In this document: piece by piece, positions 425-11,617 of the stretch
Layout: every line of letters begins with the position of its first letter
How positions within the stretch are numbered: position 1 is the stretch's first letter
Assembly: GCA_013001295.1 (NCBI GenBank)
Contig: JABDMW010000046.1
Coordinates: forward strand, 124,001 to 188,000
DNA from: Hyphomonadaceae bacterium
GTDB taxonomy: Bacteria > Pseudomonadota > Alphaproteobacteria > Caulobacterales > Maricaulaceae
Reading direction: 5' to 3'
Length of the DNA: 64,000 nucleotides
Notes under the pieces: model-generated
Database searches by the model: none
What the model was told of the DNA's origin: nothing
Seen by the model: only the letters and a program-made list of their open reading frames with translations
Position numbers and translations under genes: made by a program

Positions 425-1420
425 TTATTGAAACTCTTCCGTATCAATGGCTTTTCGCATGGCTTCCGGATAGCGGTGTCCGGAAACAGTATCATGATTT
501 ATCAGCTTTGAGATTTCAATTAAAACTGACGGGGCAACGACATTCTTGAGTGTGTCCAGGTTTTCTTCCAAGTGAGCAATTGACGCAGTGCCCGGAATGA
601 CATGCACGTGCTCGCCCTGTGCTAACACCCAAGAAAGTGAAAGTTGTGCGGGTGTTAGATGTTCCCGCATTGCAATTTGCTCAAATTGTGCAACTAACTT
701 CCGGTTTTTTTCCCAGCTGTCATCCTGAAACCGCGGCTGTTTTGTGCGCAGGTCTTTCGCATCCAATTGGGCCGGATCTTTCACCGCACCAGCAAGAACG
801 CCGCGGGCTACCGGAGAGAAGGCTACAAGTGCCGTTCCTAACGCCCTACAAGTTTCCAGCACAGCTATTTCGGGATTACGCGTCCATAATGAATACTCTG
901 ATTGCATGGCTGCGATTGGGTGTTCTTTGTGAGCATCCTTTAGCGTTGAGGCGGACATTTCTGAGAGACCAATCGCACCAATTTTTCCTTCGTCGATCAG
1001 TCTTGCCAACGTACCGACCGAGTCTTCTATCGGTGTGTTTGGATCCCGGCGATGCAGATAGTAAAGGTCAATATAATTGACCCCCATCGTGCTCAAACTT
1101 GTCTCAACGGCCCTGCGTATAGTCTTCGGCCTACAGTCGATACGGCGGTTGCCGCCATCAAATTCAATGCCGCATTTTGATGCAACGAAAACCTCATCTC
1201 TGCGGGTTTTTACGACCTTGGAAAGCAAGGCTTCATTGTGACCAAGCCCATAAAGCCGTGCGCTATCTAAGTGATTGTAACCAATATCTATGGCGCGATG
1301 CAGCAGGGCCTCCGCATCGCTCTCAGATGGCAGTGGGTAATAGGCTTGGCTCAGCGACATGCAACCCAGCCCTACCGGGCAAAGCTCTTTCCCATTCAGA
1401 GGTCTGGTTGGTAGGTTCAC
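425..1420 (-). CDS. Aldo/keto reductase
   Basis: A 331-residue NAD(P)H-dependent oxidoreductase of the AKR (TIM-barrel) family. Visible family signatures are GLGCMSLSQAYYP near the N-terminus, the catalytic Asp/Tyr block HLDSARLYGLGHNEALL, the Lys/His strand VFVASKCGIEF and YIDLYYLHRRDPNTPIEDSV, and the cofactor-binding segment HVHVIPGTASIAHLEENL. It is the last gene of the minus-strand protocatechuate operon and its start overlaps the pobA stop by 4 bp, so it is almost certainly cotranscribed. It may reduce an aromatic aldehyde or a ring-cleavage semialdehyde, but no step of the 4,5-cleavage pathway requires it, so its substrate is unassigned. Confidence 0.88.
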   Translation of the reverse strand: MNLPTRPLNGKELCPVGLGCMSLSQAYYPLPSESDAEALLHRAIDIGYNHLDSARLYGLGHNEALLSKVVKTRRDEVFVASKCGIEFDGGNRRIDCRPKTIRRAVETSLSTMGVNYIDLYYLHRRDPNTPIEDSVGTLARLIDEGKIGAIGLSEMSASTLKDAHKEHPIAAMQSEYSLWTRNPEIAVLETCRALGTALVAFSPVARGVLAGAVKDPAQLDAKDLRTKQPRFQDDSWEKNRKLVAQFEQIAMREHLTPAQLSLSWVLAQGEHVHVIPGTASIAHLEENLDTLKNVVAPSVLIEISKLINHDTVSGHRYPEAMRKAIDTEEFQ

Positions 1421-2585
1421 AAGGGTAGTCCTATATAGTTTTCAGCAATGCTCATCTGGGCCGCTTTGGAGTTGGCAATATAATCTAGTTCCGCAATCTG
1501 CATTTTGCGCCCAAAGTCTCCGTCCTCCGGAAAACTATGCATCAAGGAGGTGAGATACCAAGCGAAGCGCGATGATTTCCAGACTCTTGCCAAAGCCTTT
1601 GCTTCATAAGCGTCTGTTCCTGACAGGTCATTTTGCTTGAAGTAATCTATCAGAGCAGGCGCGAGGTAAGCAATATCCGAAGCTGCAAGATTGAGACCTT
1701 TCGCCCCTGTAGGTGGGACAATATGCGCCGCATCCCCGGCCAAGAATAGACTGCCATAGCGCATTTTTTCAAAGATAAATGACCGCAGCGGCGCGATAGA
1801 TTTCTCCAGGGAGGGGCCGGTGGTAATGTTGTCTTTAAACTCTGATCCCAACCGCACTTTCAGTTCATTCCAGACCCGCTCATCAGACCAGTCTTCAATC
1901 TTCTCATCCGTCGGGACTTGCAAATAGTAGCGACTGCGTGTGTTGGAGCGCATAGAGGCCAGTGCGAAGCCGTTATCGTGCTTGGCATAGACGACTTCAT
2001 GCGCGCAAGGCGGCACATCGGCCAGAATACCCAGCCAACCAAAAGGATAGACGCGCTCCACAGATGACGCTGCTGAAGCCGGAATGGCTTTACGGGAGGG
2101 GCCATGAAATCCGTCACACCCAGCAATAAAACGCGCGTCGATACGGTGCTCTTCTCCGTCTTTTCTAAAGGTGACAAAGGGGGCTTCACTTTCAATGTTA
2201 TGCAAGGCGACATCTTTTACCTCATAGATGGTTTCAACCCCGCGCGTCGGCGCCGCATCCATCAGATCTTTCGTGATTTCGGTCTGCCCATAAACCACGA
2301 CATGTTTTCCGGTCAGTTTTCGAACCGGAATTTTGATCAATTTGTCCCGGTCTGTGAGCGAAACATAGTCGTGGGGAATACCTTCAGCCTGTAGCCTCTC
2401 ATCCAGCCCCAACTGTGTCATAACGTTGATTGTACCTTGCTCAAGGATGCCCGCGCGAATGCGCGAAAGAACATACTCACCAGAGCGGCGCTCAAGAATA
2501 ATCGCGTCTATCCCGGCCTGGGCCAATAAATGTCCAAGCATAAGCCCTGATGGTCCTGCGCCGATAATGACGACATCGGTTTTCA

Positions 2586-2586
<1 letters not shown>
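1417..2586 (-). CDS. pobA: 4-hydroxybenzoate 3-monooxygenase
   Basis: A 389-residue FAD-dependent aromatic hydroxylase that converts 4-hydroxybenzoate to protocatechuate with NAD(P)H and O2. The N-terminal Rossmann motif GAGPSGLMLG, the RIRAGILEQGTINVM segment typical of PobA, the FAD/NADPH motif GCDGFHGPSR and the C-terminal flavin-binding GDAAHIVPPTGAKGLNLAASD are all present, and the length matches the family (about 390 residues). It overlaps ligC by 1 bp and the aldo/keto reductase by 4 bp. This places 4-hydroxybenzoate entry in the same transcript as ring cleavage. A 3-hydroxybenzoate or salicylate hydroxylase is much less likely given the PobA-type motifs. Confidence 0.93.
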
Positions 2587-4788
<2,202 letters not shown>

Positions 4789-4796
<8 letters not shown>

Positions 4797-5811
4797 TTTC
4801 TACTTTCATCAGTTTTTCAATGACCCGGCGCGCATGAGTGCCGCCCGAGTCTATTGAGAGCACGCGCAAAGCCATATCAGGGTTGTCAGCAATCGAGATT
4901 TGCTGACCTTCCAAAATGTCTATGTCTTCGCTAAATATCTTGAACTGACCATTCTTGATGCGATCTGTTAGACCTTGATCCTCGATCCGGAAATTGCGGA
5001 CCATGCCCCAGAAATAGTGACAGGTTGTTTCAGTTTCAGGTGTCATCGAGTCAACGACAAAACCCCGCACACCGGAATCATGACTTTCGATCGTGTCTCC
5101 GTTTTCAACGGGTGAAACACCCACGTCGATATGCACCGAGCAGGGTTCAATGAACTCACATATTTGCCAGCGATCCACAGGTACATCTTTTTGCAAAGCA
5201 TCGCGCCAAAAAGGCGGCGGAGAAATATTGGGTATCCATCGCGACAGGGTCACTTTGTCGCCATCGACAACCGTTTCCAACGGCGCTTCTTTCAATTCCT
5301 TTTGGCCAATAGATCCGGCATGAACATAGGTCTCGTGGGTGAGGTCCATCAAATTATCGATGAACAGCCGATAGTCGCAGGCCACATGCATATACCCGCC
5401 ATCAAAAACCCAACCCTCACTATCGCAGGGCCAGAAGTTTGGTATTTTTGTTTCGTCGGCTTTTTCCTGATCCCCAATCCAGACCCAGATATACCGGAAT
5501 TTTTCAACCACGCCATAACTGGGCGTGCAGACTTTTTTGTTCACGCGTTCATGAACCTGTGGCATTTCCTCCGGGGTCCCGTCAGGGCCCACCAGCATGC
5601 CGTGATACATACAACGGATGTTGTCGCCTTCACGCATCCCCATTGAGAGCGGTAAAAGACGATGTGGACACGCGTCTCGCAACGCCACAACACTTCCGTC
5701 GAGTTTGCGGTACATGACAATCGGCTCGCCACATATTTTTCGCGAGATTGGCTTGTTGGCCACTTCGCCGTCCCAGGCTGCTATATACCACCTGTTTCGA
5801 ATAAATGTCAT
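4789..5811 (-). CDS. vanA: Vanillate O-demethylase, Rieske oxygenase subunit
   Basis: A 340-residue Rieske non-heme iron oxygenase that removes the methyl group of vanillate to give protocatechuate and formaldehyde. The Rieske [2Fe-2S] motif is CPHRLLPLSMGMREGDNIRCMYH (Cys-x-His, 17 residues, Cys-x2-His), preceded by ICGEPIVMYR. The mononuclear iron site is NLMDLTHETYVHAGSIGQKE, nearly identical in layout to VanA. Also VanA-like are PPFWRDAL and VPVDRWQICEF. It sits between ligJ (4-bp overlap) and ligA (8-bp overlap). The usual reductase partner VanB is not in the window, so electrons must come from a gene elsewhere. A related aromatic O-demethylase with another substrate is possible. Confidence 0.88.
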
Positions 5812-6848
5812 AGTCCACGTTCCTTCAACAATTCATCGAGTCGGGGATAAACCCGTCTTGCATTGGTTTCAAATATATCTTTTTCATCTTGCTCTGAGAG
5901 GCCAAGATTTTCGACATAACGTTTTGTATCATCAAAGTATTGACCCGTTTCAGGATCAATTCCGCGCACTGCACCAATCATTTCCGAGGCAAATAAAATA
6001 TTCTTTTTATCGATGACCTTAAACAATAGGTCGATTCCGGGTTGATGGTAGACACAGGTGTCGAAATAGACGTTCTTCATGACATGCTCTGATAAGGGCG
6101 GTATTTTCAGCATGTCGGCAAGGCCGCGATAACGCCCCCAGTGATACGGTACAGCTCCGCCGCCATGGGGAATAATGAAACGAAGTTTTGGGAAATCCGC
6201 AAATAGATCGCCCGTCATTAGGTTCATAAAGGCATTCGTGTCTGCCGCCATGTAATATGAGCCCGTAGCATGCAGGCAGTCATTACAGGAGCCAGATACG
6301 TGGATCATGGCAGGGACATCCAACTCCACCATTTTCTCATATAGGGGATACCAATATTTATCCGTGAGAGGCGGGGCAGCAAAGTGGCCGCCGCTGGGAT
6401 CAGGGTTAAGGTTGCATCCAATAAAGCCCATCTCATTAACACAACGTTCCAGTTCGCTAATGGCGTCATCAAGTGGGGCAGGCATTCCGCCCTCCATACG
6501 TTGCGGCAACATACAAACGCCGACAAAATTATTGGGAAATAAATCCACAACCCGCTTGATCATATTGTTACAAGCATGCGACCAATCCAGGACGGTTTCG
6601 CGGTCACCCACATGCGGTTCCATCGCCGACGCGCGCGGACTAAAGATCGTCAAATCTGCGCCGCGCTCTTGTTGAAGTTTAAGCTGATTGGCTTCAATAA
6701 TATCCCGCAATTCCGTGTCAGAATATTCAGGCTGTGCAGGACGCGGTAAGCTTGGGTCTTCTAATCGTGCTTTTTGAGCGGCTCTGAAATCTAAATGGGC
6801 TTGCGGGACCAAAGTTTGATGTCCGTGAATATCGATGACTAAGCTCAT
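5808..6848 (-). CDS. ligJ: 4-oxalomesaconate hydratase (amidohydrolase family)
   Basis: A 346-residue amidohydrolase-superfamily enzyme that adds water to 4-oxalomesaconate to form 4-carboxy-4-hydroxy-2-oxoadipate. The metal-binding N-terminal motif VIDIHGH is present, then ADLTIFSPRASAMEPHVGD, PPLTDKYWYPLYEKM, MIHVSGSC and the barrel motif FIIPHGGGAVPYHWGRYRG. Length and motifs match the LigJ type rather than the unrelated PIG-L-type GalB hydratase. It is the first gene of the minus-strand operon and lies 105 bp from the divergent LysR gene, with a clear operator-like repeat in between. The closest alternative is another Amidohydro_2 decarboxylase, but the pathway context argues for LigJ. 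Confidence 0.92.
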   Translation of the reverse strand: MSLVIDIHGHQTLVPQAHLDFRAAQKARLEDPSLPRPAQPEYSDTELRDIIEANQLKLQQERGADLTIFSPRASAMEPHVGDRETVLDWSHACNNMIKRVVDLFPNNFVGVCMLPQRMEGGMPAPLDDAISELERCVNEMGFIGCNLNPDPSGGHFAAPPLTDKYWYPLYEKMVELDVPAMIHVSGSCNDCLHATGSYYMAADTNAFMNLMTGDLFADFPKLRFIIPHGGGAVPYHWGRYRGLADMLKIPPLSEHVMKNVYFDTCVYHQPGIDLLFKVIDKKNILFASEMIGAVRGIDPETGQYFDDTKRYVENLGLSEQDEKDIFETNARRVYPRLDELLKERGL

Positions 6849-6953
6849 TTATAGAGTCCCAAATTTGATTGGCTTACAAGTTTCTAACGAAATCGACGGT
6901 CATTGCCGAATTAAGAGTCCACATTCGGTATAAGAAAATGCTAACTGGGAGTT
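6849..6953. promoter_or_regulatory. Divergent promoter region between ligJ operon and LysR regulator
   Basis: A 105-bp AT-rich spacer separates two genes transcribed outward, so it must carry both promoters. It contains a perfect inverted repeat of LysR type (annotated separately), located about 26 bp before the regulator ATG. That spacing fits negative autoregulation of the regulator together with activation of ligJ. I could not assign firm -35/-10 boxes. Confidence 0.7.
6906..6928. promoter_or_regulatory. LysR-type operator, CCGAAT-N11-ATTCGG
   Basis: The sequence has two perfect 6-bp arms, CCGAAT and ATTCGG, separated by exactly 11 bases. This meets the T-N11-A rule for LysR-family binding sites. 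It lies in the only intergenic region shared by the LysR gene and the lig operon. A second site with the same AAT-N11-ATT core is upstream of ligK. Binding by the adjacent regulator is inferred. Confidence 0.72.
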
Positions 6954-8105
6954 ATGGAAACATGGCAATTTAATATTCGGCACTTAAGAGCATTTTTAAA
7001 AACTGTTGATCTCGGCACACTGATATCGGCATCGCAAGCGGTGAACTTATCTCAGTCGGCTGTCACTCAGGCCATCGCAAAACTTGAAAACCAATTGGGC
7101 GTTCGGCTGTTTATTCGGCAGAATGAAGGTATGGAACCTACAGAAGCAGCCCGGATCATCTATCCGCGTGTTCAGGACATTCTGGGACATATTGGCCGAC
7201 GCAATACAACACATACTCAAATCAAAGCTTTTTTGGCCTTAGCGCAGGGCGGTAACTATGCAGAAGCCTCACAGCTGACAGGTCTGTCCACAGCCTCACT
7301 CCATAGAGCAGTAAGAGACCTCGAAATTTTACTCAGGCAAAAACTCACACGCAGAAAAGGGCGTGGGATTATACTGACAGATTTTGGCCAGAACCAAGCC
7401 CGCCATTTTGGGCTCGCAGCCGCAGAACTGCGTTACATGCTCGACGATTTAAGCGCTCTTACGGGGAAAAAGGCGGGACGTATTGCGATTGGGGCTATGC
7501 CGTTATGCCGCGCGCGCGTTCTACCGTCTGCAATCGTGGCTTATATGCAAAAATTCCCAACTGTGGATATCAATATTGCCGAAGGTTCATTTGTTGAACT
7601 CATTGATCCGCTGCGAAACGGTGAACTTGATTTTCTCATTGGCGCGTTACGTGATCCGGGGCCTGGACCTGACCTTGTTCAAATTCCGTTATTTGACGAT
7701 GCCCCCGTGATTGTCGCGCGTGCAGGACACCCCTTAATGACTGAAAGCCGCCGAAGATCTACACCTTTGCAAGCCTTAGCGGAATTTCCGTGGTGCGTGC
7801 CAAATTCCGGAGTGCCGCTGCGCGAAAATTGGGAGAGTCTGTTTACAGATGCTGGTCTTTCTGTACCGCGTATCTCTGTTGAATGTGGTTCAGTCATCGC
7901 TAATCGGCAAATCTTGATGAAAACAGATTGCCTGACCATTTTATCACCGGATCAGGTTGCCGTGGAGCTTGAGGCCGGTTGGCTCGGCATAATATGTCCA
8001 TTACCGCCGCGCCTTAATCGGGTAATTGGCTTAACGCACCGCGAAGGTTGGCGTCCGACAAATTCGCAATCACTTTTCATGAATGAACTCCGAGCTGTTT
8101 GCTAA
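6954..8105 (+). CDS. LysR-family regulator with two tandem HTH domains (probable regulator of the lig operons)
   Basis: A 383-residue LysR-type regulator, longer than the usual 300-330. Residues about 8-67 form a normal LysR HTH (NLSQSAVTQAIAKLENQLG, then VRLFIRQNEGMEPTEAA). Residues about 88-147 form a second one (TQIKAFLALAQGGNYAEAS, LSTASLHRAVRDLEILLRQK, LTRRKGRGIILTDFG). The inducer-binding domain starts near residue 174 (GRIAIGAMPL) and contains the usual VELIDPLRNGELDFLIGAL strand. The gene is divergent from ligJ and upstream of ligK, so it most likely controls protocatechuate catabolism, with a pathway intermediate as inducer. It plays the role of LigR but has a different architecture, so no symbol is given. 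Confidence 0.9.
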   Translation: METWQFNIRHLRAFLKTVDLGTLISASQAVNLSQSAVTQAIAKLENQLGVRLFIRQNEGMEPTEAARIIYPRVQDILGHIGRRNTTHTQIKAFLALAQGGNYAEASQLTGLSTASLHRAVRDLEILLRQKLTRRKGRGIILTDFGQNQARHFGLAAAELRYMLDDLSALTGKKAGRIAIGAMPLCRARVLPSAIVAYMQKFPTVDINIAEGSFVELIDPLRNGELDFLIGALRDPGPGPDLVQIPLFDDAPVIVARAGHPLMTESRRRSTPLQALAEFPWCVPNSGVPLRENWESLFTDAGLSVPRISVECGSVIANRQILMKTDCLTILSPDQVAVELEAGWLGIICPLPPRLNRVIGLTHREGWRPTNSQSLFMNELRAVC

Positions 8106-8125
8106 CTGTTCGTATTTTCTAATGG

Positions 8126-8200: not shown

Positions 8201-8878
8201 ATGCCCGAACATGTTGTTGTGCAAAATATTGACCGGATAGATTTAGGTGTGGTCGATGGCCTCGGCGCTTGCGGCGTCGCGACAGTGTCGGAGGCACAGG
8301 GCCGAACCGGATGCATGAAGCCCTATATGCGCCCCATATATCCCGGAGCCCGCGTCGCTGGAAATGCGGTCACAGTCTCCATCCCTCCCGCAGATAATTG
8401 GATGATCCATGTTGTCGTTGAGCAGTGCCAAAAGGGGGATTTTCTTGTCATCTCGCCAACCTCTGAATCGGACGCTGGTTATTTTGGAGACCTGTTTGCC
8501 ACGGCGCTGAAATTACGGGGCGTTCGCGGGCTCATCATTGAAGGCGGTGTGCGGGATTTGGCGGAACTGCAGGAGATGGATTTTCCTGTCTGGTCCAAAT
8601 ATGTGCATGGGACAGGGACTGTTAAAGAAAGCCTTGGCTCTATCAATGTGCCAATCGTTTGTGCTGGGCAGACCGTAAACCCCGGCGATGTGATCGTCGC
8701 TGATGATGATGGTGTTTGCGTTGTTTCTCACGCAACTGCTGAGGTCGTGCTTAAAAATTCCCACGCACGCGAAGAAAAGGAAGCGCGCAACCGCGCAAAA
8801 TTTGCTGCGGGTGAACTGGGTCTGGATGTTTATGGCATGCGTGAGCGGCTCAAAGACAAAGGCTTGAAATATATCTGA
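8201..8878 (+). CDS. ligK: 4-carboxy-4-hydroxy-2-oxoadipate aldolase
   Basis: A 225-residue class II (divalent-metal) aldolase of the RraA-like HMG/CHA aldolase family. It performs the last step of the 4,5-cleavage pathway, splitting 4-carboxy-4-hydroxy-2-oxoadipate to pyruvate and oxaloacetate. Family features are the N-terminal [32 protein letters not shown], the metal/substrate loop [18 protein letters not shown] with its conserved Arg-Asp, and [15 protein letters not shown]. Length is typical (about 225-230). An AGAGGATAAA ribosome site precedes the ATG. The stop overlaps the ligI start by 1 bp. RraA itself is shorter and lacks this context. Confidence 0.94.
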
Positions 8879-9798
8879 TGTCCATTTCACAGGCTCAACC
8901 TCCATCGGAAAACGCACGGGATGTTCATCCATCGCCAAAATCTCCGGACTTTAAAGTGCCTGCAGGCGCTGTGGATGCGCATTGTCATGTCTTTGGACCG
9001 TCACATAAATTTCCCTATTCCCCAATCCGTAAATACACGCCTTTTGATGCCCCGGCAGAAAAGCTTTTTGCACTTCGCGATCATCTGGGCTTTGAGAAAA
9101 ATGTACTGGTTCAGGCCAGTTGTCATGGCAAAAATAATGAGGCGATGGTGGATTGTCTCAAGCTGGCAGGCGATAAAGCCCGCGGTGTTGCGATAGTCGA
9201 TCCTGCCATTTCAGACGTTGAACTGATAGCATTGGATCAGGCCGGCGTTCGGGGCGTTCGGTTTAACTTTTTAAAACGCCTTGTCGACCCAACACCAAAG
9301 TCAGAATATTTAAAGATCGCAGAGCGTGTTGCGAAAATGGGGTGGCATACCGTTGTCTATTTTGAAGCTGAGGAAATAGACGAAATTGCTCCGTTCCTGG
9401 AATCTATTCCGACGATTGTTGTGATTGACCATATGGGGCGGCCGGATGTGAGCTTGGGCGTAGATCATCCGCAATTTGAACGGTTCATAAAATTAATGGC
9501 GGCTAACCCGAATTTCTGGGTGAAAGTGTCTTGTCCAGAACGCCTCTCCGTCCAAGGTCCGCCCTATGAGGATGTCACGCCATTTGCGAGGACGCTTGTC
9601 GAGCGTTTCCCTGACCGTGTGCTTTGGGGGACTGACTGGCCGCATCCAAATATGACAACCCATACGCCTGATGATGGTCTGCTGGTTGACCGTATTCCGC
9701 ATATCGCGCCGACCAAAGCCCTGCAGCACAAATTGCTGGTTGAAAATCCGATGCATCTCTACTGGCCTGGACATGCCATTCCTGAAGGTGATTTATGA
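8878..9798 (+). CDS. ligI: 2-pyrone-4,6-dicarboxylate hydrolase
   Basis: A 306-residue amidohydrolase-superfamily lactonase that opens 2-pyrone-4,6-dicarboxylate to 4-oxalomesaconate. Motifs are VDAHCHVFGPSHKFPYSP at the N-terminus (the HxH strand), VLVQASCHGKNNEAM, RGVRFNFLKRLVD, VVIDHMGRPD and the C-terminal WGTDWPHPNMTTHTPDDG carrying the catalytic Asp. All are characteristic of LigI. It overlaps ligK by 1 bp and ligU by 4 bp. Together with ligC it confirms that the pathway runs through the pyrone intermediate. Confidence 0.95.
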   Translation: MSISQAQPPSENARDVHPSPKSPDFKVPAGAVDAHCHVFGPSHKFPYSPIRKYTPFDAPAEKLFALRDHLGFEKNVLVQASCHGKNNEAMVDCLKLAGDKARGVAIVDPAISDVELIALDQAGVRGVRFNFLKRLVDPTPKSEYLKIAERVAKMGWHTVVYFEAEEIDEIAPFLESIPTIVVIDHMGRPDVSLGVDHPQFERFIKLMAANPNFWVKVSCPERLSVQGPPYEDVTPFARTLVERFPDRVLWGTDWPHPNMTTHTPDDGLLVDRIPHIAPTKALQHKLLVENPMHLYWPGHAIPEGDL

Positions 9799-10844
9799 GT
9801 GGTATCCCTTGCATGCTTATGCGCGGTGGAACCTCCAAAGGGCCGTTCTTTTTGGCGAGTGATCTTCCCTCTGATAGTGAAGCGCGCAACCAAGCTATAT
9901 TGACAATCATGGGGTCCCCGGATGCGCGCCAAATCGACGGGATGGGGGGATCCCACCCTCTGACAAGTAAAGTTGCGATTATATCACCATCAAATCGGGA
10001 TGGTTTTGATGTCGATTATTTATTCCTGCAGGTGACGCCCGAGACAGGCGCAATTTCCGATTCTCAAAATTGCGGGAACATGCTGGCGGCCGTCGGTCCC
10101 TTTTCAATTGAACGCGGGCTTGTGAAAGCCGTAAGTGACGAGACGGCTGTCCGCGTCTTTATGGTGAATTCCGACTCTCGGGCCGACCTTATTGTGCAAA
10201 CACCAAATGGTAATGTAACGTATGATGGCGATACCCGCATTGATGGTGTGCCCGGAACCCATGCGCCAATTTTACAAAATTATTATGGAACGGCTGGCGC
10301 CCAATGCGGGGCATTACTGCCGACCGGTCGTCAAATTGACGTCATTGATGATGTCGAATGCACGCTGGTCGATAATGGAATGCCAACCGTCTTAATGCGG
10401 GCGGGGGATTTGGATTTGACTGGATATGAAACGCCGGAGGCTCTCGAAGCCAATGAAAACTTGAAACTGCGGCTGGAGTCTATTCGACTGACGGCGGGAA
10501 AATTAATGAAGTTGGGGAATGTCAAAGACATGACAATTCCCAAAATGTGTCTTATCGCGCCGCCGCGAAATGGCGGAATTATTTCGACACGGACGTTCAT
10601 TCCGCATCGAGTCCATCAAACTGTGGGCGTTCTGGCGGCGGCTTCTGATGCTGCGGGCTGTATGTTCCCCGGCGGCGTTGCTGCAAGTATGGCGGAGTTT
10701 GATGAGATGAATCCATGCCGCGTCGATATCGAGCACCCGACAGGCGCGCTGACTGTTGAGCTGGAATGGGAAGGCGAGACGATCATCCGAACAGCCCTTC
10801 TGCGTACAGCTCGAAAGATCATGGACGGAATGGTTTTCTTATGA
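9795..10844 (+). CDS. ligU: 4-oxalomesaconate tautomerase (PrpF family)
   Basis: A 349-residue protein of the PrpF/isomerase family with two diaminopimelate-epimerase-like halves. It shifts the double bond of 4-oxalomesaconate so that LigJ can hydrate it. Signatures are the N-terminal MLMRGGTSKGPFFL, GMGGSHPLTSKVAII, the half-site SDSQNCGNMLAAVGPFSIE and PKMCLIAPPRNGG. Length is typical of LigU/GalD. PrpF methylaconitate isomerases look similar, but there is no methylcitrate gene here and the neighbours are all protocatechuate genes. Start and stop overlap the neighbouring genes by 4 bp each. Confidence 0.9.
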   Translation: MSGIPCMLMRGGTSKGPFFLASDLPSDSEARNQAILTIMGSPDARQIDGMGGSHPLTSKVAIISPSNRDGFDVDYLFLQVTPETGAISDSQNCGNMLAAVGPFSIERGLVKAVSDETAVRVFMVNSDSRADLIVQTPNGNVTYDGDTRIDGVPGTHAPILQNYYGTAGAQCGALLPTGRQIDVIDDVECTLVDNGMPTVLMRAGDLDLTGYETPEALEANENLKLRLESIRLTAGKLMKLGNVKDMTIPKMCLIAPPRNGGIISTRTFIPHRVHQTVGVLAAASDAAGCMFPGGVAASMAEFDEMNPCRVDIEHPTGALTVELEWEGETIIRTALLRTARKIMDGMVFL

Positions 10845-11617
10845 AGATTGCAATTATCGGATTTGGCGAAGCCGGGCAGATGTTTGGCAAATATTTGACT
10901 GACTACGCGGATGTGAGTGCCTATGATATTAAGCAGAACAATGACATCAAAGCGAAGGCCGCCGCTGCAGGTCTTACGTTTCAACACAATTTCGCGGATG
11001 CATTGGAGGGTGCGGAATTCGTCCTCTCGTTGGTGACAGCTGACCAAGCTAGCGTTGTCGCAAAACAAGCGGCTCAATACTTAGCCCCCGATCAATATTT
11101 TCTGGAGATGAACTCCGTTGCGCCCATGACCAAACAGGCGAATGCCGCCATTTGTCCCAATTTGGTGGATATTGCGATTATGGCGCCTGTCTATCCGCTG
11201 GAAGCAAAAGTCCCCTTATTATTGTCTCACCCAGACGGCGCGGCGTTAACGGCAAAGCTGAATGATCTTGGCCTGAGTGCCCGATGTGTTGGTTCGAACA
11301 TCGGGCGGGCGGCCGCCATTAAAATGTGTCGTTCCGTGATGATAAAAGGCATGGAAGCGCTTACCTTAGAATGTTTTCAAACCGCACGGTTTTATGATGT
11401 TGAGGCGGAAATCAAAGCCTCTCTGCACAATAGCTTCCCGGGCATGGGCTGGGACAAAGACCGCGTCGATTATTGGTTTGAACGGGTTGAAACACATGGT
11501 CTTCGCCGCGCAGAAGAAATGCGTGAAGTCGCGAAGACCGTGAGAGATGCGAATGTTGATTTTGAGATGTCGAAAAGCGTTGCTGAAACTTTTGAGACAT
11601 TCATGCGGAATAGATAG
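10841..11617 (+). CDS. NAD(P)-binding dehydrogenase with DUF1932 C-terminal domain, function unknown
   Basis: The ATG at 10841 was chosen over the track start (10766) because it overlaps the ligU stop by 4 bp and begins directly with the Rossmann motif MKIAIIGFGEAGQMFGKYL. The product has 258 residues. The N-terminal half is a beta-hydroxyacid/6-phosphogluconate dehydrogenase-type NAD-binding domain; the C-terminal half (GRAAAIKMCRSVMIKGMEAL onward) matches the DUF1932 helical domain, with a Lys at the place of the family's catalytic lysine. It is cotranscribed with ligKIU but no known step of the pathway needs it. It may act on a 2-hydroxy acid side product; this is inference. Confidence 0.82.
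   Translation: MKIAIIGFGEAGQMFGKYLTDYADVSAYDIKQNNDIKAKAAAAGLTFQHNFADALEGAEFVLSLVTADQASVVAKQAAQYLAPDQYFLEMNSVAPMTKQANAAICPNLVDIAIMAPVYPLEAKVPLLLSHPDGAALTAKLNDLGLSARCVGSNIGRAAAIKMCRSVMIKGMEALTLECFQTARFYDVEAEIKASLHNSFPGMGWDKDRVDYWFERVETHGLRRAEEMREVAKTVRDANVDFEMSKSVAETFETFMRNR

Follow-up and report, generated by a model that had tools for sequence, protein, structure and literature searches.

Few families of bacterial regulators are as numerous as the LysR proteins, and working models of their action assume one helix-turn-helix (HTH) domain per subunit. The usual subunit, although this layout is not strictly defining, has about 300 residues and a single HTH, and the usual mode of action is that of a tetramer (a dimer of dimers) bound to a regulatory and an activation site. 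Among the closest described systems to the locus analysed here is LigR, which binds its operators and activates its targets in SYK-6 and N. aromaticivorans (PMC12710314). The footprints of the two organisms have the sequence TT-N-GC-N6-TTAT in common, and about 30 bp are protected between -51 and -85 (PMC12710314). The effectors of SYK-6 LigR are protocatechuate and gallate (PMC6888825), and the effector of P. putida GalR is 4-oxalomesaconate (PMC9942251).

The locus lies in a stretch of 64,000 nucleotides from the genome of a Hyphomonadaceae bacterium, here called the window. Several further regulators resemble its LysR-type protein to different degrees. FldY, from a fluorene/protocatechuate cluster of Sphingobium (AP027331), is about 50% identical over the full length, has two HTHs and is encoded next to fldZ (ligK) and lig-type genes; the literature found describes it only as a putative regulator (PMC8431788). 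Examples of the GbpR/GalR type from Paracoccaceae (gbpR_3, CP031586), Pantoea and Burkholderia are double-HTH proteins encoded beside gal or lig genes, but they are 29-38% identical to the window protein and their inter-HTH segments are longer. The best NCBIfam profile is that of PcaQ, with 189.4 bits, far below the TIGR02424 equivalog cutoff of 303.8, and the best PDB sequence match is TsaR (3fxq). The fold of the effector domain is common to the window protein, PcaQ and TsaR, whereas PcaQ and TsaR have one HTH and about 300 residues, unlike the window protein, and PcaQ falls outside the double-HTH clade.

The reading preferred here, with a probability of about 0.75, is that the window gene is an orthologue of LigR (FldY), a two-HTH LysR-type activator of genes for protocatechuate/gallate 4,5-cleavage, which would act from two flanking sites on both neighbouring operons, most likely with both HTHs on DNA. 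The two HTHs, their conservation, the gene neighbourhood and the operators were computed in this work, whereas operator binding and activation by LigR, and the effectors, are taken from the cited papers. From these we infer orthology of function, the presence of both HTHs on DNA, the pairing of a half-site with each HTH and the oligomeric state.

Domain architecture and predicted structure

The sequence-only reading had claimed two complete HTH blocks followed by a single effector domain. This layout was borne out: a profile search gave two matches to Pfam HTH_1 (PF00126, 60 positions), both above the gathering cutoff of 26.6 bits, and one LysR_substrate domain follows (Table 1). HTH1 covers positions 1-60 of the profile, and HTH2, matched at residues of about 88-146, covers positions 2-60. 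HTH2 is the weaker match of the two (46 vs 71 bits), and the SQP with which the recognition helix usually starts is replaced in it by STA. With two HTHs and 383 residues, the protein departs from the usual layout of a single HTH, a linker helix and about 300 residues, and is a variant architecture inside the LysR superfamily.

The AlphaFold2 model of the whole protein, built with an alignment of 75 homologues, has a pLDDT of 95.1 and a pTM of 0.90 and contains two full winged HTHs. HTH1 is made of helices 8-20 and 23-29, the recognition helix 34-48 and a wing at residues 53-62; the corresponding elements of HTH2 are helices 87-99 and 102-109, the recognition helix 113-127 and the wing 132-141. 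The HTH2 wing is followed by a linker helix (143-170) and then by the effector domain. The second block could have been a mere linker variant; instead, it scores as an HTH_1 domain and is predicted with a recognition helix of its own. When fragment 1-173 is modelled alone it keeps a pTM of 0.86, which suggests that HTH1 and HTH2 take up a defined position relative to each other. Foldseek matched the N-terminal fragment to LysR DNA-binding domains, including DNA-bound CbnR (5xxp) and BenM (4iht/4ihs), and the CbnR and BenM fits have an rmsd of 1.1-1.3 Å over 74-75 columns. None of the best 50 matches contained a PDB alignment spanning both HTHs, the longest having 103 columns.

Table 1. Features of the regulator gene, its flanking sites and the neighbouring genes (positions are those of the window)
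Feature	Position	Strand	Basis or remark
ligR/fldY-type LysR regulator, 383 aa, ATG start	6954..8105	+	2 HTH_1 + 1 LysR_substrate
HTH1, residues 8-67	6975..7154	+	Pfam HTH_1 71.0 bits, E 8e-20
Inter-HTH segment, residues 68-86	7155..7211	+	end of short helix 64-80 + 6-residue connector
HTH2, residues 87-147	7212..7394	+	Pfam HTH_1 46.1 bits, E 4.6e-12
Long linker helix, residues 143-170	7380..7463	+	AlphaFold2 secondary structure
LysR_substrate effector domain, residues 172-382	7467..8099	+	109.4 bits
Predicted LigR regulatory site, ligJ operon, TTAGCATTTTCTTAT	6930..6944	-	exact TT-N-GC-N6-TTAT
Second conserved element, ligJ operon, putative activation site, TCTTAATTCGGC	6905..6916	-	+29..+40 from site start
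Predicted LigR regulatory site, ligK operon, TTCGTATTTTCTAAT	8109..8123	+	family motif
Second conserved element, ligK operon, putative activation site, TTTGTATTGGAA	8137..8148	+	site alignment
4-Oxalomesaconate hydratase (LigJ-like), first gene of divergent operon	5808..6848	-	68% identical to SYK-6
Rieske oxygenase (VanA/LigM-niche), function inferred	4789..5811	-	homologue is vanA_1 in L029
Protocatechuate 4,5-dioxygenase alpha (LigA)	4392..4796	-	TIGR02792, 179 bits, cutoff 108.6
Protocatechuate 4,5-dioxygenase beta (LigB)	3545..4423	-	NF009903, 507 bits, from residue 12
CHMS dehydrogenase (LigC-like)	2586..3548	-	56% identical to SYK-6 homologue
4-Hydroxybenzoate 3-monooxygenase (PobA)	1417..2586	-	TIGR02360, 598 bits
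CHA aldolase (LigK)	8201..8878	+	TIGR02798, 346 bits
2-Pyrone-4,6-dicarboxylate hydrolase (LigI-like)	8878..9798	+	56% identical to SYK-6 homologue
4-Oxalomesaconate tautomerase (LigU)	9795..10844	+	NF033377, 497 bits, cutoff 440
DUF1932/NAD(P)-dependent oxidoreductase	10841..11617	+	homologue of SARO_RS14280

Flanking operons and operators

The regulator gene sits between two operons of protocatechuate 4,5-cleavage, ligJ-Rieske-ligA-ligB-ligC-pobA and ligK-ligI-ligU. The NCBIfam cutoffs are passed by LigA, LigB, PobA, LigK and LigU, and no NCBIfam match was found for the LigJ-like protein. At 73 of 87 double-HTH loci, a lig-type or DUF1932 gene is no more than about 1.5 kb away. The longest open reading frame of ligB overlaps ligA and begins 11 codons before the family profile; the true start is probably MAKISAG, at residue 12. 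A Rieske gene is found between ligA and ligJ within the lig operon not only in the window but also in Litorimonas (L001), Henriciella (L002) and Sphingobium (L029), and its place inside the operon suggests that O-demethylation of vanillate is co-regulated with the lig genes. In most lig clusters (L001, L002, L029, L030, L099 and others) the double-HTH regulator comes with the DUF1932 gene, which in sphingomonads is the first to follow one LigR operator. The homologue SARO_RS14280 of the DUF1932 gene has no known role in the pathway, according to the LigR paper (PMC12710314).

Each of the two intergenic regions beside the gene contains a LigR-type site. On the ligJ side, 9 nt separate the site from the LysR start codon downstream, and the site points to ligJ; the other points to ligK and differs from TT-N-GC-N6-TTAT at two of the eight fixed bases, within the family motif. 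Relatives carry the same motif at the same places. Of 104 flanking intergenic regions, 89 exceed 6 bits with a matrix fitted on them, the motif being read in a single direction, toward the target genes. A second conserved element, with a consensus of about TTCCGATTGG (78 sites, 44 upstream and 34 downstream), is located 28 bp downstream of the LigR box, where an activation site beside the -35 region is expected. The available text of the LigR paper was found to make no mention of it (PMC12710314). The window operator thus has both a regulatory-type and a putative activation-type element. No sigma-70 consensus promoters were found around the window gene.

The composite pattern of box and second element, which was derived from the relatives and from the window's own two sites and hence written with the latter in view, fits the 3.49-Mb genome perfectly at exactly two places, one on each side of the window gene, and at none with one mismatch; a reversed-pattern control also matches at up to two mismatches (7+7 against 4+6). 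The core site alone is unspecific genome-wide, with 9 matches against 7 for its reversed control, and was dropped as genome-wide evidence, only the composite being specific. The earlier claim that the protein controls aromatic catabolism agrees with the lig operons on both sides and with the LigR-type operators on either flank of the gene, and such a function is very likely.

Probable use of the two HTH domains

The recognition helix of HTH1 has the family signature [ST]QPAxTQ, which reads SQSAVTQ in the window protein, and that of HTH2 the signature SQPSLHR, which reads STASLHR. T38 and Q39 of the first helix are conserved in 72 and 65 of 78 homologues, and H117 and R118 of the second in 66 and 69 of the 78. 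As each helix keeps a conserved signature of its own (TQ vs HR), both HTHs are probably used, and the balance of the comparison tips towards contact of both with DNA.

The most serious alternative is that one HTH binds DNA and the other is a dimerisation, spacing or allosteric module, in an otherwise ordinary LysR tetramer occupying one regulatory and one activation site. The operator would suit such a protein, being composed, as for ordinary LysR proteins, of one T-N11-A box (TTMGYA-N5-CTWAT) and one downstream element, and the footprint of about 30 bp published for N. aromaticivorans LigR is no larger than theirs (PMC12710314). In double-HTH relatives further away the outer box, TATAGC-N5-CTTATA, is nearly symmetric. 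Given this box and the ordinary layout of box and downstream element, the operator was rejected as proof of four HTH contacts. The lower profile score of HTH2 in the window protein points the same way, but the two domains of the SYK-6 protein described below score equally (60.2 and 59.4 bits). Moreover, the TQ and HR helices are both strongly conserved and differ from each other, and a module with a purely structural task would have no need to conserve its recognition helix. The conservation thus speaks, mildly, against one HTH having turned into a sensor or dimerisation module, and the use of a single HTH on DNA is regarded as a credible but minority explanation.

If both HTHs are on DNA, as preferred here, the form of the operator becomes relevant. 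In the LigR clade it is asymmetric: of 83 sites, 6% have a mirrored pair at position 1, 10% at position 4 and 4% at position 5, and the sole mirrored pair kept is T2/A14 (98% of the 83). This asymmetry fits two unlike readers and is no proof of them; since the box of the distant relatives suits an ordinary symmetric pair of identical HTHs, it may be a mere specialisation of the LigR clade. A narrower proposal, which we consider doubtful, is that the subunit comprises two non-equivalent readers in a rigid intramolecular pair, HTH1 facing one half of an asymmetric LysR box and HTH2 the other half, and that the box would be read by a single subunit, or by a dimer in place of a tetramer. Operator recognition by unlike readers would then be a mode that was found described for no LysR protein.

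Relation to LigR and spread of the tandem form

The sequence-only reading had credited LigR with about 300 residues and one HTH and had regarded the window protein as a different design for the same job. The genome containing loci L099/L101 was named as that of SYK-6 because its LigB is identical at 301 of 302 positions to PDB 1b4u_B, the protocatechuate 4,5-dioxygenase beta chain, a protein of SYK-6. Its LysR gene is located between ligK-ligU-ligI and DUF1932-ligJ-ligA-ligB-ligC, has TT-N-GC-N6-TTAT on both flanks and encodes a protein of 393 residues with two HTH_1 domains, about 48-49% identical to the window protein. As far as this genome shows, neither the size nor the single HTH ascribed to LigR holds, and the regulator at the SYK-6 ligR position has the same two-HTH design. 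The Sphingobium fldY product and the pCAR3 homologue share this architecture too, so that it is a feature of the LigR clade. The lig neighbourhood of the window is real and speaks for that reading, but the window carries LigR operators, and its protein and that of SYK-6 belong to one clade of double-HTH proteins with the same domain architecture; a separate design was rejected on the SYK-6 locus and is highly improbable.

The LigR orthologue thus preferred is like LigR of SYK-6 and N. aromaticivorans in its position between the ligK and ligJ operons and in the sequence and placement of its operators (PMC12710314). Gene order differs in that the DUF1932 gene ends the ligK operon in the window and adjoins ligR in sphingomonads. 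Unlike the LigR systems, the window operon includes pobA and the Rieske gene.

The tandem form is widespread. The window genome has one double-HTH gene, its 8 other LysR-type matches all being single-HTH. Strong homologues are present in 18 of 299 genomes of the same order and in 61 of 301 genomes of Sphingomonadaceae (a family name that was inferred), further homologues occur in other Alphaproteobacteria and across the phylum, and plasmid-borne copies are found in Novosphingobium, Sphingobium, Rhizobium, Agrobacterium, Pantoea and Burkholderia. The tandem layout is kept by nearly all strong homologues, with one single-HTH exception (L044), and among the family members sampled an HTH_1 match was obtained for 25 of 25 first blocks and 25 of 25 second blocks. 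The survey thus ruled out that the double HTH is unique to the window genome. It has a negligible probability that a chance fusion or an assembly artefact gave rise to the gene in this genome alone, the same architecture being present in Litorimonas (80% identity), in another genome of the same family (78%) and at over 80 further loci in Alpha-, Beta- and Gammaproteobacteria.

When HTH1 was left out of the tree, a branch with SH-aLRT 95 separated 57 double-HTH proteins from 15 single-HTH proteins, the latter a small sample. Identities are 47% between HTH1 domains, 42% between HTH2 domains and 30% between HTH1 and HTH2, within or between proteins. As HTH1 and HTH2 are no more alike within a protein than between proteins, the tandem-HTH event is old by this measure and without recent exchange. 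A tree of HTH1 and HTH2 on 71 columns favoured neither duplication nor fusion. The inter-HTH segment varies from 19 to 55 residues across the aligned family.

Several relatives deserve separate mention. Of the single-HTH proteins found, L044 (genome G527) is the closest relative, with 35% identity (E 6e-41); it may stand near the ancestor of the double-HTH clade or be a case of secondary loss. Four sphingomonad double-HTH homologues (L080, L083, L084 and L048), about 51% identical to the window protein, have no lig neighbours within 1.5 kb, and their genomes (G983, G1111, G1258 and G1293) contain a second double-HTH copy elsewhere; they are possibly duplicated regulators with a new target. L069, L071, L072, L108 and L109 form a deep double-HTH sub-clade with different recognition-helix sequences, some members of which adjoin gallate dioxygenase or galB genes (Burkholderia, Pantoea). 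No LigR box was recognisable upstream of the three regulators of this sub-clade that were scanned (L069, L071 and L072).

In the working model, the regulator would bind on both sides of its own gene, at one site per intergenic region, and turn on ligJ-Rieske-ligABC-pobA on one side and ligK-ligI-ligU on the other. The trigger would be a pathway compound in the effector domain, either protocatechuate/gallate or 4-oxalomesaconate, the latter as in P. putida GalR. Each site would present a T-N11-A box and, 28 bp on, the conserved element just upstream of the promoter. A rigid HTH1-HTH2 pair in each subunit would provide two unlike readers (TQ and HR), fitting an operator with differing half-sites.

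No LysR protein with two HTHs was found described in open-access full text, and no PDB entry for such a protein was found; HTH domains are not a subject of the LigR paper (PMC12710314). The two HTHs of LigR-clade regulators, including the one at the SYK-6 ligR position, thus appear to be undescribed in the searchable literature, and in that paper the LigR footprint and effector data are interpreted without mention of two HTHs (PMC12710314). A clade encoded beside meta-cleavage genes for lignin-derived aromatics in alpha-, beta- and gammaproteobacteria, the SYK-6 ligR-position regulator included, keeps two distinct conserved HTHs. Whether such unlike heads can read LysR operators matters for lignin biosensors and for aromatic-funnelling strains.
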